From Candidatus Iainarchaeum sp. (lineage in GTDB: Archaea; Iainarchaeota; Iainarchaeia; Iainarchaeales; UBA10219): a stretch of DNA of 64,000 nt. The stretch lies in contig JAGVWE010000002.1 of assembly GCA_018304425.1 (NCBI GenBank), positions 186,001-250,000 on the forward strand, read 5' to 3'. Positions 36,034 through 40,903 of the stretch are shown piece after piece. Position numbers and translations under genes: made by a program. The notes under the pieces were generated by a model, which worked only from the letters and a program-made list of their open reading frames with translations, was not told where the DNA came from and ran no database searches. Within the stretch, counting starts at the first letter, position 1, and the number at the start of each line of letters is the position of its first letter.

Positions 36034-36133
36034 GCCCAAAACCCCGTGAAATAAGGGATTTAAGTAATTTAAACCCATTGGCGGGAAGGAAAAAAGCGAT
36101 AATCCTATTAAGGGGGAGAAAAGAGATACTACC
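36034..36133. promoter_or_regulatory. Divergent leaderless promoters of the pilus operon and the mTERF-like gene
   Basis: ATTTAA at 36058-36063 lies 26 bases before the GTG of the pilus ATPase (minus). CCTATTAAG (about 36104-36112) lies 26 bases before the ATG at 36134 (plus). No palindrome like those of sites 1 to 4 was seen here, so the pilus machinery and the minor pilins may be controlled differently. Confidence 0.5.
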
Positions 36134-37126
36134 ATGGCCACGGCCTCCGAATTGGTGGCGGCTGGCTTCAGCCCCGAAGCCGCCAAACGGATTCTGGAAA
36201 GACGTCATGCCAGTTTCAAGAGCTTGTCTGCCACGGAACTCGACCACTGGCTGAACCAGGCGGCAAAAACCTATGGCGTGGCGCGTGCCGCCATTGTCCA
36301 TGCATGCGTAGCCTACCCGGAGTTCACCGGCCTCAATCATGAGCGCGTGCTCCGAGACATTGAACAAGCATACGGAGCAGACCGGGAACGAGCGGCAAAG
36401 CTCGTGATGCAAGTGCCGCGGTTCGCCAGCGTGAACCATGCAAAGGCCCGGCAAAAGGTGGAAGAAGGCCTGAAACTTACCCCGGAAAACGCCGCCAAGC
36501 TCGTGCTAAGCTGCCCGGCACTGGCGGGCTTTGATGTAAAAGGAAGGTTAGCCTCCCTAAGACGGGCGCTCGGCGTTACTTTGGAGCAGGCGCTGAAAAT
36601 GGTGCTGACACAGCCGTCCTTGCTGGGACGCAACCCGGAACGGTTGAAGCATCGCATCACCCGATTCGCTGACCTGCTCCAGGTTGACTTCGAAAGCCTC
36701 GTGAAACTTCTTGAGAAAGCCCCCCGGTTGGCGTCCCTTTCCAGCCGACGTCACGTCGCTGCCTGGGAAGCCGCGCGGAACGCCGTGCAGCGCTTGAACG
36801 ATGTGCGTCAAGCGAGAGGCGAAGTGCCCTATGTACCAAGCACCGGCGAGTTACTGGAAATTTACGCCAAATACTACCCGCTGACCCCCTACCCGATTAG
36901 GGGGCTGCGACGAGGAGAGGACTGGATAAAACGCCGCATCGTCCAGGCAGGCCAGGAAAAACGCAGCACCCGCGCACGACGCGCTCGCACGGCTGCATTC
37001 AGGAAAGCGATGCCCAGCAACCGCACGGCACGCATGCTGCGGTTCTTGCACAAGAAGCCAAGCCCTTTCGGGCGCCGCGTCGAAGGAACCCTGAAACGAA
37101 AACTGCGCCTGGCTAGAGCCGCGTAA
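36134..37126 (+). CDS. Protein with five mTERF-like 33-residue helical repeats and a basic tail
   Basis: 330 aa. Residues about 48-205 are five helical repeats with a conserved Pro at 62, 95, 128, 161 and 197 (spacing 33, 33, 33, 36). Each has the form AAKLVLSCPALAG followed by a Leu-rich helix and LGVT. This is the layout of mTERF proteins, which grip nucleic acid in eukaryotic organelles. A four-helix-like N-terminus precedes the repeats. The C-terminal 90 residues are rich in Arg/Lys (STRARRARTAAFRKAMPSNR). Together these imply DNA or RNA binding. The target is unknown. The gene converges on the Nudix gene, overlapping by 14 bases. Confidence 0.7.
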   Translation: MATASELVAAGFSPEAAKRILERRHASFKSLSATELDHWLNQAAKTYGVARAAIVHACVAYPEFTGLNHERVLRDIEQAYGADRERAAKLVMQVPRFASVNHAKARQKVEEGLKLTPENAAKLVLSCPALAGFDVKGRLASLRRALGVTLEQALKMVLTQPSLLGRNPERLKHRITRFADLLQVDFESLVKLLEKAPRLASLSSRRHVAAWEAARNAVQRLNDVRQARGEVPYVPSTGELLEIYAKYYPLTPYPIRGLRRGEDWIKRRIVQAGQEKRSTRARRARTAAFRKAMPSNRTARMLRFLHKKPSPFGRRVEGTLKRKLRLARAA

Positions 37127-37528: not shown

Positions 37529-39439
37529 TCAGCTTAGTTTCCGTTCGCGGATTTCGGCCAGAAGCCGATCCAGGAAATGCTGGACTTTCAGGGTCTCCAG
37601 CTTGCCGGCGCGGTCGCGGACCGTGACCGTGCCTTCCTTGGCCTCCTTTTCGCCGACGACGAGGATGTAGGGGATTTTTTCGAGTTGAGCAGCGCGGACC
37701 TTGTAGGGAACCGTTTCATGCTTTCGGTCGACGTCGCATCGGACCATGTTCTGGCGGAACAACTTCATGAGCTTGTCCGCGTCCTTGAAGTAGTCCTGTC
37801 CCACGGGAACAATGCGCACCTGGATGGGCGACAACCAGACCGGGAAGGCTCCCGCAAAGTGCTCGGTGAGCACGCCCAAAAAGCGTTCCACGCTGCCCAA
37901 AATCGTGCGGTGGTTGATGACCGGCCTATGCTCTTTGTCGTCCGAGCCGATGTAGGAGAGGTCAAAGCGTTCCGGCATCTGGAAGTCCAACTGGATGGTG
38001 CCACACTGCCAGGTTCGGCCAATGGCGTCCTTCAAGTGGAGGTCGATTTTGGGGCCGTAGAAGGCGCCATCGCCTGGATTGATTTTGTACGAAACCTTGT
38101 TGTCCTCCAAGGCCTTCTTCAGGGTGGCCTCGGCTTTCTCCCAGAGCTTGGGGTCTCCCATGGACTTCTCGGGCCGCGTGGAGAGCTCCACGTGGTAACT
38201 GAAACCGAAGGTCTTGTACACGCGGTCACACAATTGCAGCAACTCCTGGATGATGTCCTCCATCTGGTCCTCGGTGTGGTAGATGTGGGCGTCGTCTTGC
38301 ACGAACTTCCGCACCCGGAAGAGCCCGTTCAGCACCCCGGAGAGCTCGTGGCGGTGGACGAGGCCGAACTCCGCCAGCTTGAGGGGCAGGTCACGGTAGC
38401 TGCGCCGCTTGGTGCGGTAAATGATGGTGCTGGGCGGGCAGTTCATGGGCTTCAACGCGAAGTCCTCTTCGTCGATTTCCAGGCAATACATGTTCTGCTT
38501 GTAATGCTCCCAGTGCCCGGAGGTCTTCCACAAGGTGTTGCGCAAGACGATGGGCGTGTTCACGAAATCGTAGTTGAGCTGGAACAACTGCTCGGACATG
38601 AACTTGATGAGCTCGTTGTACATGGCCATGCCCTTGCCGTGCATGAACACGCTGCCCGGGCTCTCCGCGTGCATGCTCCACAAGTCGAGTTCCTTGCCGA
38701 GCTTCATGTGGTTGCGTTTCTCGGCTTCCACGCGTACGTGCAGCCACTGCTCGAGTTCCTTTTTCTCGAAGAAACTGATGCCGTAAATGCGTTGGAGGGA
38801 AGCGTTCTTCTGGTCGGCGCGCCAATAGGAACTGGAAGCCTTCAACACCTTGAAGGCGCCGATGCGGCCCGTGCTGGGAAGGTGCGGCCCGCGGCACAAG
38901 TCCACGAAGTGCTCGCCCTGGCTGTAAAACGAAATCTTTTCCCCGGTGGGAAGCTCGTTGATCAACTCGGTCTTGTACTTGTTGCCCTTCTCGCGCTTGA
39001 GGGCCTCGGCCTTGCTGACCTCGACCCGCTTGAAGGGCTGGTCGGCTTTCACGATTTCGGCCATCTTGGCCTCGATTTTCTGGAAGTCCTCGGGCGTGAA
39101 CGGCCGGGGCATGTCGAAGTCATAGTAAAAGCCTTCCTCGATGGTGGGGCCAATGGTTATCTTGACTTCAGGGAACAACGTTTTCACGGCCTCGGCCATG
39201 ACGTGCGCGGTGGAATGCCACAAAAATTCCTTGTAGTCCTTGGACTTGGGAGTGATGACTTCAAAGGCGCCGGAAACCGAAAGCGGCCGGTGCAGGTCGA
39301 GGAGTTCCTGGTCGAGCTTGACGCCGACCGCGGCCTTGGCCAGGCCCTCGCCAATGGACTTGGCTACTTCGAAGCCGGTCGTGCCAGGCTTGAACTTGTG
39401 CTTGGAGGCATCCGGGAAGGTTAACTCAATGCCAGGCAT
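37529..39439 (-). CDS. thrS: Threonyl-tRNA synthetase, bacterial-type with TGS and N2 editing domains
   Basis: 636 aa. A TGS domain (1-62) is followed by the SAD-type editing domain with H75xxxH79 (LWHSTAHVMAEAV) and the later Cys/His pair (HFVDLCRGPHLP). The class II core has motif 2 (FRVRKFVQDDAHIY), the zinc Cys (ALKPMNCPPS) and motif 3 (HRTILGSVERFLGVL). A C-terminal anticodon-binding domain ends the protein. Most archaeal ThrRS proteins have a D-aminoacyl-tRNA-deacylase-like N-terminus instead, so this bacterial domain set suggests gene transfer. GGAGGA lies before the ATG. Confidence 0.96.
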   Translation of the reverse strand: MPGIELTFPDASKHKFKPGTTGFEVAKSIGEGLAKAAVGVKLDQELLDLHRPLSVSGAFEVITPKSKDYKEFLWHSTAHVMAEAVKTLFPEVKITIGPTIEEGFYYDFDMPRPFTPEDFQKIEAKMAEIVKADQPFKRVEVSKAEALKREKGNKYKTELINELPTGEKISFYSQGEHFVDLCRGPHLPSTGRIGAFKVLKASSSYWRADQKNASLQRIYGISFFEKKELEQWLHVRVEAEKRNHMKLGKELDLWSMHAESPGSVFMHGKGMAMYNELIKFMSEQLFQLNYDFVNTPIVLRNTLWKTSGHWEHYKQNMYCLEIDEEDFALKPMNCPPSTIIYRTKRRSYRDLPLKLAEFGLVHRHELSGVLNGLFRVRKFVQDDAHIYHTEDQMEDIIQELLQLCDRVYKTFGFSYHVELSTRPEKSMGDPKLWEKAEATLKKALEDNKVSYKINPGDGAFYGPKIDLHLKDAIGRTWQCGTIQLDFQMPERFDLSYIGSDDKEHRPVINHRTILGSVERFLGVLTEHFAGAFPVWLSPIQVRIVPVGQDYFKDADKLMKLFRQNMVRCDVDRKHETVPYKVRAAQLEKIPYILVVGEKEAKEGTVTVRDRAGKLETLKVQHFLDRLLAEIRERKLS

Positions 39440-39667
39440 ACGCTATTCCTCCAGTACGAGAGAAGTTAAAAACCGTTGGTAGGGGAAAGGCAACCGGCGG
39501 GCTAAAAAGAACGAGGAAAACGATTTCACCGACGAGTTTCTGAATCCCTTCTATGCATGGAACATATATTGGCGCTGACCTTGCTTAAATTCGTTTCGGG
39601 GCAGCGGATTTGGCACCGGAAACCCGGCCCCCGCAGGCATTTAAACCCTCACCCCCCCTATTCTCGT
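39440..39667. promoter_or_regulatory. Divergent promoter region between thrS and the Nre-like gene
   Basis: GGAGGA lies at the thrS start, with a GTTTTTAAC box about 25-35 bases upstream of it on the minus strand. On the plus strand ATTTAAA (39639-39645) is 26 bases before the Nre-like ATG at 39668. The open frame upstream of that ATG (from 39557) crosses this promoter and is not regarded as coding. ATATAT (about 39564) and CTTAAATT are further A+T words without a clear job. Confidence 0.5.
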
Positions 39668-40903
39668 ATGATATCGCCCCAGCTCTGCGTGCGGTGCAAG
39701 GGAAGGCTCTGGTGCGGGCCCAAGTGCTTCATCCTCGAAAAGTTCGAGGCCCACCGGAAAGTCACGCGGAAGCTCGTGGGGAAGTTCTTCCAGGGCAGCA
39801 GCCCGCCCTCGGTGTTCGTGGGCTGGCACGGCTATCCAAAGGTAACCATTGCCCCGGTTTCGCCCCCGGAAATCCTGGACAACGCGGGGTTCATGGACGA
39901 GCCAGACCGGTGGTTTGGGTTGTCCACCGAGAAAATCGTGCAAATGCGTGAGACGCTCATCCAGAGCAAGAAACCCATCGACATCCACCAGGCCGCGAAC
40001 CCGGACTACAAGCTCATGGAAATCCAGGAAGTCGCGATGAGCGCCGAACCCCTCGACATCGAAGTCGAACTCGAGAAGGCACCCGAAGCCCGGCTGTCCT
40101 TCCAGGAAAGCGCGGCCCCCATCGGCATGAGCGCGCCCCTCAAGAAGTTCAAGTTGACCGACAACCCGAAAGTCCTCCCCAAGGTGGAGTACCTGGTGTC
40201 GGACAGCGAGGCCAAGTCGGGCACGGCTTTGCTGGAGTTGTACCGCGCCGGGGTCTCCGTGCACTCGCTGACCAAGCTGTTGTCCGCGGGCCTGCTCGGC
40301 GTGCAAAAGCGGCGTAAATTTGTTCCCACGCGGTGGAGCATAACGGCGGTCGACAGCAACGTCAGCAAGCAATTGGTGGACGAGAAAGTAAAGTTCTATC
40401 CCACCATCGACGAGTACCAATTGTTCCAGTCGCATTACCTGGACAACCACTTCTACGTCCTGCTCTTGCCGGAGAAGTGGTGCTTCGAGCAGTTGGAGAC
40501 CTGGGAGCCGGGCGGGGCCTGGGCGGTTAACGCCTCGGAACCCATCATCATGGCGGACTGGGAGGGCTATCGCGGGAGGAAGGACTATGCGGATGACGTG
40601 GCCGGAGCCTATTACTCGGCGCGTTTGGCGGTTGCCGAGCACCTGGTGAAGGAAAAGCGGCAAGCCGGCTGCATCGTGTTTCGCGAAATCGGGGAGGGGT
40701 ACAGTTTGCCTCTCGGGACCTGGCAGATACGCGAGAACGTCCGCAACGCCTTGAAGTATCCGCCCATGCGGTTCGGCGACTTCGCGTTGGTGCAGGCGTT
40801 CCTGGAAAAGAAGCTCAAGACGTCCTTCAAGGCCTACAAGGCCAAGTCCAAGTTGCTCGACAAGCTCACGAACCAAAGAAAACTCACGGCATGGTTGCAA
40901 TGA
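39668..40903 (+). CDS. Nre-family archaeal DNA repair protein with PCNA-interacting C-terminus
   Basis: 411 aa from ATG 39668. The N-terminus holds a zinc-binding motif CxxCx5CxxxC (CVRCKGRLWCGPKC). The body fits the two Nre domains (DUF650 then DUF651): SSPPSVFVGWHGYPKVTIAPVSPPE, then LLGVQKRRKFVPTRWSITAVDSN and EGYRGRKDYADDVAGAYYSARLAV. The end NQRKLTAWLQ is a PIP-box (Q..L..WL) for binding PCNA. The family acts in repair of DNA damage in archaea. The CoA-binding protein gene overlaps its stop by 4 bases. Confidence 0.88.
   Translation: MISPQLCVRCKGRLWCGPKCFILEKFEAHRKVTRKLVGKFFQGSSPPSVFVGWHGYPKVTIAPVSPPEILDNAGFMDEPDRWFGLSTEKIVQMRETLIQSKKPIDIHQAANPDYKLMEIQEVAMSAEPLDIEVELEKAPEARLSFQESAAPIGMSAPLKKFKLTDNPKVLPKVEYLVSDSEAKSGTALLELYRAGVSVHSLTKLLSAGLLGVQKRRKFVPTRWSITAVDSNVSKQLVDEKVKFYPTIDEYQLFQSHYLDNHFYVLLLPEKWCFEQLETWEPGGAWAVNASEPIIMADWEGYRGRKDYADDVAGAYYSARLAVAEHLVKEKRQAGCIVFREIGEGYSLPLGTWQIRENVRNALKYPPMRFGDFALVQAFLEKKLKTSFKAYKAKSKLLDKLTNQRKLTAWLQ

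Follow-up and report, generated by a model that had tools for sequence, protein, structure and literature searches.

An archaeal gene for a predicted mTERF-fold solenoid protein, with relatives whose near-identical repeats vary around the motif proline

Proteins of the mTERF family have long been held to be organellar, and it was not until 2024 that relatives from bacteria were described. The human mitochondrial transcription termination factor MTERF1 (PDB 3MVA, 5CRK) follows the major groove of DNA over 22 bp with eight motifs of 33 residues; this groove is lined by the prolines of the motifs, residues R162, R202, R251, R350 and R387 read bases directly, and the tail is K-rich (PMC4705650). 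The MTERF superhelix is left-handed, as stated in the title of a 2010 paper by Jimenez-Menendez et al. (cited in PMC3981765). Besides these DNA-bound factors, MTERF4, which works with its partner NSUN4, and the mitoribosomal mTERF protein mS93 act on ribosomes. The bacterial members, named pTERF, are tandem mTERF-like DNA-binding proteins found mostly in Bacillota, among which pTERF1 binds ACTNNNAGTC with a Kd of 1.87 nM and pTERF2 a different motif, and their reprogrammability has been raised as possible (Hu et al. 2024, PMC11417379). The word archaea is absent from the text of that paper and all published members are bacterial; likewise, no variable positions are described in its text. Helical repeats of a similar length (∼33–34 residues) are also present in TALE and TALE-like proteins such as dHax3, AvrBs3 and STAR.

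The locus described here belongs to a 64,000-nucleotide stretch of archaeal DNA (the window), taken from a 502-kb contig of Candidatus Iainarchaeum sp., a member of the Diapherotrites (Iainarchaeota), and is present in a single copy in this genome. A sequence-only reading of it had proposed an archaeal protein with mTERF-like repeats, while placing the family mostly in organelles; this last view is outdated by the publication in 2024 of pTERFs, bacterial proteins with nanomolar affinity for DNA (PMC11417379). The features of the locus are as follows, the helices being those of the predicted model.

36106..36111, + strand: TATTAA, TATA-like hexamer, 28–23 bases before the ATG, read from the sequence
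36134..37126, + strand: gene for the predicted archaeal mTERF-fold protein, 330 aa (open reading frame with ATG start, Pfam PF02536, AF2 model, fold match)
36134..36229, + strand: N-terminal segment, residues 1–32, predicted helical cap (helices 4–9, 14–22, 26–29)
36230..36331, + strand: repeat 1, residues 33–66, Pro62 (helices 33–47, 51–60, 62–66)
36338..36430, + strand: repeat 2, residues 69–99, Pro95 (helices 69–80, 84–93, 95–99)
36437..36529, + strand: repeat 3, residues 102–132, Pro128 (helices 102–113, 117–126, 128–132)
36536..36628, + strand: repeat 4, residues 135–165, Pro161 (helices 135–146, 150–159, 161–165)
36635..36736, + strand: repeat 5, residues 168–201, Pro197, after a step of 36 (helices 168–181, 186–195, 197–201)
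36854..37123, + strand: Arg/Lys-rich C-terminal part, residues 241–330 (from composition and pLDDT)

The periodicity of the protein stands out from chance. Pro62, Pro95, Pro128, Pro161 and Pro197 follow each other at steps of 33, 33, 33 and 36 residues, as had been read from the sequence; four prolines at exact 33-residue steps were obtained in only 3 of 100,000 shuffles, and the lag-33 self-similarity of residues 36–206 exceeds that of all 3000 shuffles at any lag between 20 and 49. The self-similarity analysis found no period in residues 207–330. The AAKLVL-xxP-xLxG pattern attributed earlier to every repeat fits repeat 3 best and the others loosely. The Arg/Lys-rich tail of about 90 residues was borne out, with 27 Arg/Lys for 5 Asp/Glu in residues 241–330. 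This part comprises an [ST]PY motif, a basic stretch modeled with low confidence (∼275–305; pLDDT below 50 at 275–295 and 297–305) and a final, confidently predicted basic helix (311–329; pLDDT of 88–90 at the C-terminal end). The [ST]PY motif and the final basic segment are shared with two homologues (P0002 and P0004), and the N-terminal motif is conserved in the Diapherotrites relatives (alignment A1).

At the profile level, Pfam PF02536 (mTERF) matches residues 10–206 with an E-value of 3.8e-8 and 33.1 bits, well over the curated gathering cut-off of 23.1 bits, which gives the match above background on which the initial proposal depended. It is the sole Pfam-A family over its cut-off; the matches to Methyltrn_RNA_4 (E 0.03) and HTH_31 fall under theirs and were rejected. 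The closest homologue, P0002, lies narrowly below the mTERF cut-off at 22.8 bits. When a profile of seven Diapherotrites sequences was searched against the PDB sequences, MTERF1 ranked first (E 9.3e-7), unrelated proteins starting at 0.15. After removal of the most mTERF-like member, P0006, the family profile (A1) retrieved Tetrahymena mS93 as best match (E 0.0013) and MTERF3/1 at 0.03–0.05, so that the link of the family to MTERF1 by sequence is weak without this member.

The predicted fold points in the same direction. The AF2 model, built from six family sequences, has a mean pLDDT of 82.4 (84–96 across the repeats) and displays five times the helix order long, long, short, each of the five prolines opening a short helix. 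Regular three-helix repeats had been anticipated from the sequence, and they are present in the model with MTERF proteins as best solved matches: the first 15 Foldseek matches in the PDB are MTERF1, MTERF3, MTERF4 and mitoribosomal mTERF proteins, all with a probability of 1.00. With VIA-align, the model superposes on MTERF1 with a Z of 14.4 over 248 residues and an rmsd of 5.4 (5–6 Å globally), followed by MTERF3 (14.2), Tetrahymena mS93 (11.2), the Chlamydomonas large subunit (11.0) and MTERF4-NSUN4 (∼8), TALEs reaching ∼7 or less. Since repeat proteins can reach a Z of 13 through a common arrangement, the mTERF assignment is based on the fact that one family clearly ranks first and is matched independently in Pfam. 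Together, profile and model support an archaeal solenoid protein with the mTERF fold as the product of the gene. From the fold match, a left-handed superhelix would be expected, at variance with the right-handed one suggested earlier and in line with the title of the 2010 paper mentioned above.

MTERF1, the best fold match, and the window protein have in common 33-residue three-helix motifs, a proline opening the short third helix and a basic C-terminal tail. They differ in the number of motifs (eight in MTERF1; five in the archaeal protein, arranged as regular tandem repeats), and their identity is 15% over the fold alignment, the base-contact residues not being conserved as a set. The mTERF fold is also shared, at a lower score (Z of 8–11), with MTERF4 and mS93. 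Compared by published description, pTERFs and the window protein are both made of prokaryotic tandem three-helix mTERF-like repeats and are encoded in MAGs, and pTERFs, like the archaeal proteins, have relatives with nearly identical repeats. However, the conserved proline and leucines of mTERF are reportedly missing from pTERF1 (PMC11417379); the window protein has retained the proline, and its repeats are more diverged than those of pTERF. As a prokaryotic tandem-repeat protein with an mTERF motif annotation, the window protein is an archaeal variant of the prokaryotic mTERF-like proteins known so far from bacteria. No description of archaeal mTERF proteins was found in the literature searched. 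In contrast, membership in the TALE family was rejected in view of the three helices per repeat, where TALE-like repeats of 33–35 residues have two, the absence of a TALE family match in Pfam and a Z of ∼7 or less compared with 14 for MTERF. The left-handed superhelix of MTERF is a further difference from TALEs.

More can be learned from the relatives. As the repeats of the window protein are degenerate, hypervariability was measured in related proteins, several of which (genomes G230, G112, G204 and G038) are composed of near-identical repeats of 32–39 residues. In five archaeal groups, it is mainly at offsets -2, -1, +1, +4 and +5 from the proline that the repeats differ from each other; in a leave-one-group-out analysis, the top five offsets from four groups hold in the fifth for 5 of 5 groups (p 0.0001–0.007). 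In G038, a pair of neighboring units shares every codon except for a seven-codon stretch around the proline, in which five amino acids differ. A like pattern with few framework changes is seen at the DNA level in the units of G112 and G230. Most changes in the five variable codons alter the amino acid, with nonsynonymous versus synonymous differences per unit pair of 3.0 versus 0.0 (G038 and G112), 3.9 versus 0.1 (G204) and 2.2 versus 1.0 (G230); as repeat pairs are not independent, these counts describe a pattern and are not a formal test of selection. The variation of recent arrays at exactly the proline-flanking positions suggests selection for changing specificity. Since its own repeats have diverged, the window protein is probably an older member with a fixed specificity rather than a freshly diversified one.

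The variable offsets were compared with the DNA contacts of MTERF1, i.e. the five arginines mentioned above and F243, Y288 and F322, which we take, in part from the titles of the substitution structures, to contact or stack on flipped bases. Contact residues were placed relative to the motif prolines from PDB alignments and mutant chains, with a hand-derived register. R162 is found at offset -2, R202, F243 and R350 at +1, F322 at +4 and R251 at +9; R387 lies at +4 from W383 and Y288 at +9 from A279, these two residues being proline stand-ins (PMC4705650). Of the eight contact residues, six coincide with the five offsets that are hypervariable in the archaeal arrays (binomial p 0.0003, residues being treated as independent), R251 and Y288 being the two exceptions, and five of seven do so without the C-segment residue (p 0.0013). 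The variation of the archaeal arrays thus lies where MTERF1 makes contact with DNA. This mapping of offsets to MTERF1 contacts was not found in the literature searched, subscription papers and preprints lying outside that search, and its priority is not firm. In the window protein, basic residues occur at +1 (R96 and R198), +5 (R166) and -2 (K195), and at +9 (R71, K104, R170 and R206).

Arrays whose near-identical repeats vary chiefly at the base-contact positions of MTERF1 suggest a modular DNA-reading protein. The resemblance to TALEs would reside in the concentration of variation at a few positions that presumably face bases, with the difference that several positions around the proline vary in the archaeal relatives compared with one di-residue in TALE. 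We propose, tentatively and with somewhat more doubt than conviction, that the left-handed mTERF scaffold serves DPANN and other archaea as the basis of a natural, modular system of DNA recognition. This system would consist of arrays of nearly identical repeats of 32–39 residues, with specificity written at the five proline-flanking offsets and evolving by repeat duplication and codon diversification in parallel to the RVDs of TALEs, and the window protein would be an older, fixed member. If DNA is read one repeat at a time via the proline flanks, such arrays would add to TALEs a second programmable DNA-binding scaffold of different topology, whose recognition code could be tested directly through repeat swaps in the near-identical natural arrays. 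The archaeal arrays also bear on the origin of the organellar mTERF family.

Regarding the window protein itself, the model and the analogy with MTERF1 lead us to favor, as reasonably probable, a protein that binds double-stranded DNA sequence-specifically, wraps along its major groove and acts as a DNA-bound regulator. The repeats would wrap double-stranded DNA as in MTERF1. The proline S-loops would line the major groove, and bases would be contacted by side chains at offsets -2, -1, +1, +4, +5 and perhaps +9, so that repeat order would set the target sequence. Scaled from MTERF1 (8 motifs for 22 bp), five motifs would cover ∼14 bp, and the basic tail may add non-specific affinity, as proposed for the K-rich tail of MTERF1. 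The protein could then operate as a stand-alone repressor, activator or transcription roadblock.

Since ribosomes, rRNA or RNA are the targets of certain mTERFs, MTERF4 among them, the main rival is an mTERF fold that binds RNA (rRNA or a specific mRNA), the basic tail serving as an anchor to the ribosome or its precursor. The mitoribosome-bound mTERFs form the second tier of fold matches, MTERF4-NSUN4 is among them, mS93 is the best PDB match of profile A1, and the tail may resemble those of ribosomal proteins. We nevertheless regard RNA binding as unlikely, given that MTERF1/3 score clearly higher (Z of 14), that bacterial pTERFs bind DNA specifically (PMC11417379), that the patchy presence of the family is ill-suited to a core ribosome factor and that hypervariable base-contact positions in the relatives fit variable targets better than conserved rRNA. 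It is quite improbable that the protein is a solenoid scaffold for proteins or a partner enzyme, devoid of any nucleic-acid function and resembling mTERF through a shared helical-repeat architecture. Generic helical repeats can score, as illustrated by the designed alpha/alpha toroids that are the best single-sequence phmmer match (4yxx, E 1e-6). Yet, these toroids were not accepted as relatives, their fold scores being far below those of MTERF (Foldseek E of 0.017 versus 2e-4), mTERF alone passes the curated Pfam cut-off, and both the basic tail and the variation at MTERF1 base-contact offsets speak against a mere scaffold. Coming back to the favored DNA-binding regulator, its distribution and genomic setting are considered below.

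Close homologues of the window protein are located in contigs of Candidatus Diapherotrites archaeon and Candidatus Iainarchaeum, in agreement with the archaeal origin initially assigned to the repeats. Protein matches were obtained in 6 of the 53 searched genomes of the order (a count that possibly includes the window's own set), plus one more by Pfam only. The Pfam mTERF cut-off is passed in 2 of 87 genomes of the phylum and 5 of 389 archaeal genomes, namely the window's, G011 and, outside the phylum, G112, G230 and G320 (E-values from 1e-9 to 1.8e-67); weak Pfam matches in G080 and G356 were not counted as homologues. With G204, whose array was found by protein search, four archaeal genomes beyond the phylum carry mTERF arrays. 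The G204 protein (L045:7964-9400) has 479 residues and seven near-identical 36-residue repeats in the shared array layout without a Pfam mTERF match, which means that Pfam undercounts such arrays. Two G230 contigs (L047:1-723 in G230:C1 and L048:2-607 in G230:C2) end within a second mTERF array of near-identical repeats; assembly breaks therefore probably lead to underestimates of repeat and gene numbers in MAGs. For the G230 array (P0009), AF2 run on the sequence alone gave a poor model (pLDDT 53), which was left out of the analysis. In G320, a whole contig (L042:1-4143 in G320:C137) is spanned by a giant open frame of 1381 residues or more, in which about twelve mTERF repeats lie among acidic/lysine-rich linkers and further regions.

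A factor that belongs to a mobile element, derives from a phage or is directed at a host (acting in a partner cell as TALEs do), instead of a chromosomal regulator, would accommodate the patchy distribution, the lack of a conserved neighborhood, the fast-changing arrays of the relatives and the mostly host-associated life of DPANN archaea, and yet appears very improbable, as no relatives were detected in the IMG/VR scans, in phage and plasmid searches with P0011 and P0009, or by fold in BFVD, a viral origin being rejected on these grounds. The PHROGs matches of P0009 and P0011 were discarded: no single stretch passes alone and they look inflated by the repeats.

No conserved operon context was found; neighbors across genomes include a pilus operon, GAPDH/agmatinase-like genes, PCNA and an XPD-like helicase, among others, and as the neighborhood differs in every genome examined, no pathway is indicated. 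In G038, a 320-residue open frame without a Pfam match (L052:5837-6796) starts a few bases after the repeat gene on the same strand and may encode a partner. In the window, the ATG start is supported by homologues, since the relatives open with a similar M...L...GF motif at the matching place. The upstream TATTAA is compatible with the leaderless promoter suggested earlier, for which it is a plausible but weak candidate; a purine-rich AGGGGGAG also lies upstream. As initially noted, the gene stands alone beside the pilus ATPase: its divergent upstream neighbors form an archaeal type IV pilus cluster (a PF00437 ATPase, two PF00482 proteins and a type IV leader peptidase), and a NUDIX gene followed by a threonyl-tRNA synthetase gene converge on it downstream. 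This synthetase (37529–39439, - strand) has TGS and second additional domains in the layout usual in bacteria, and an archaeal Nre gene (39557–40903) adjoins this bacterial-style enzyme on the archaeal contig.
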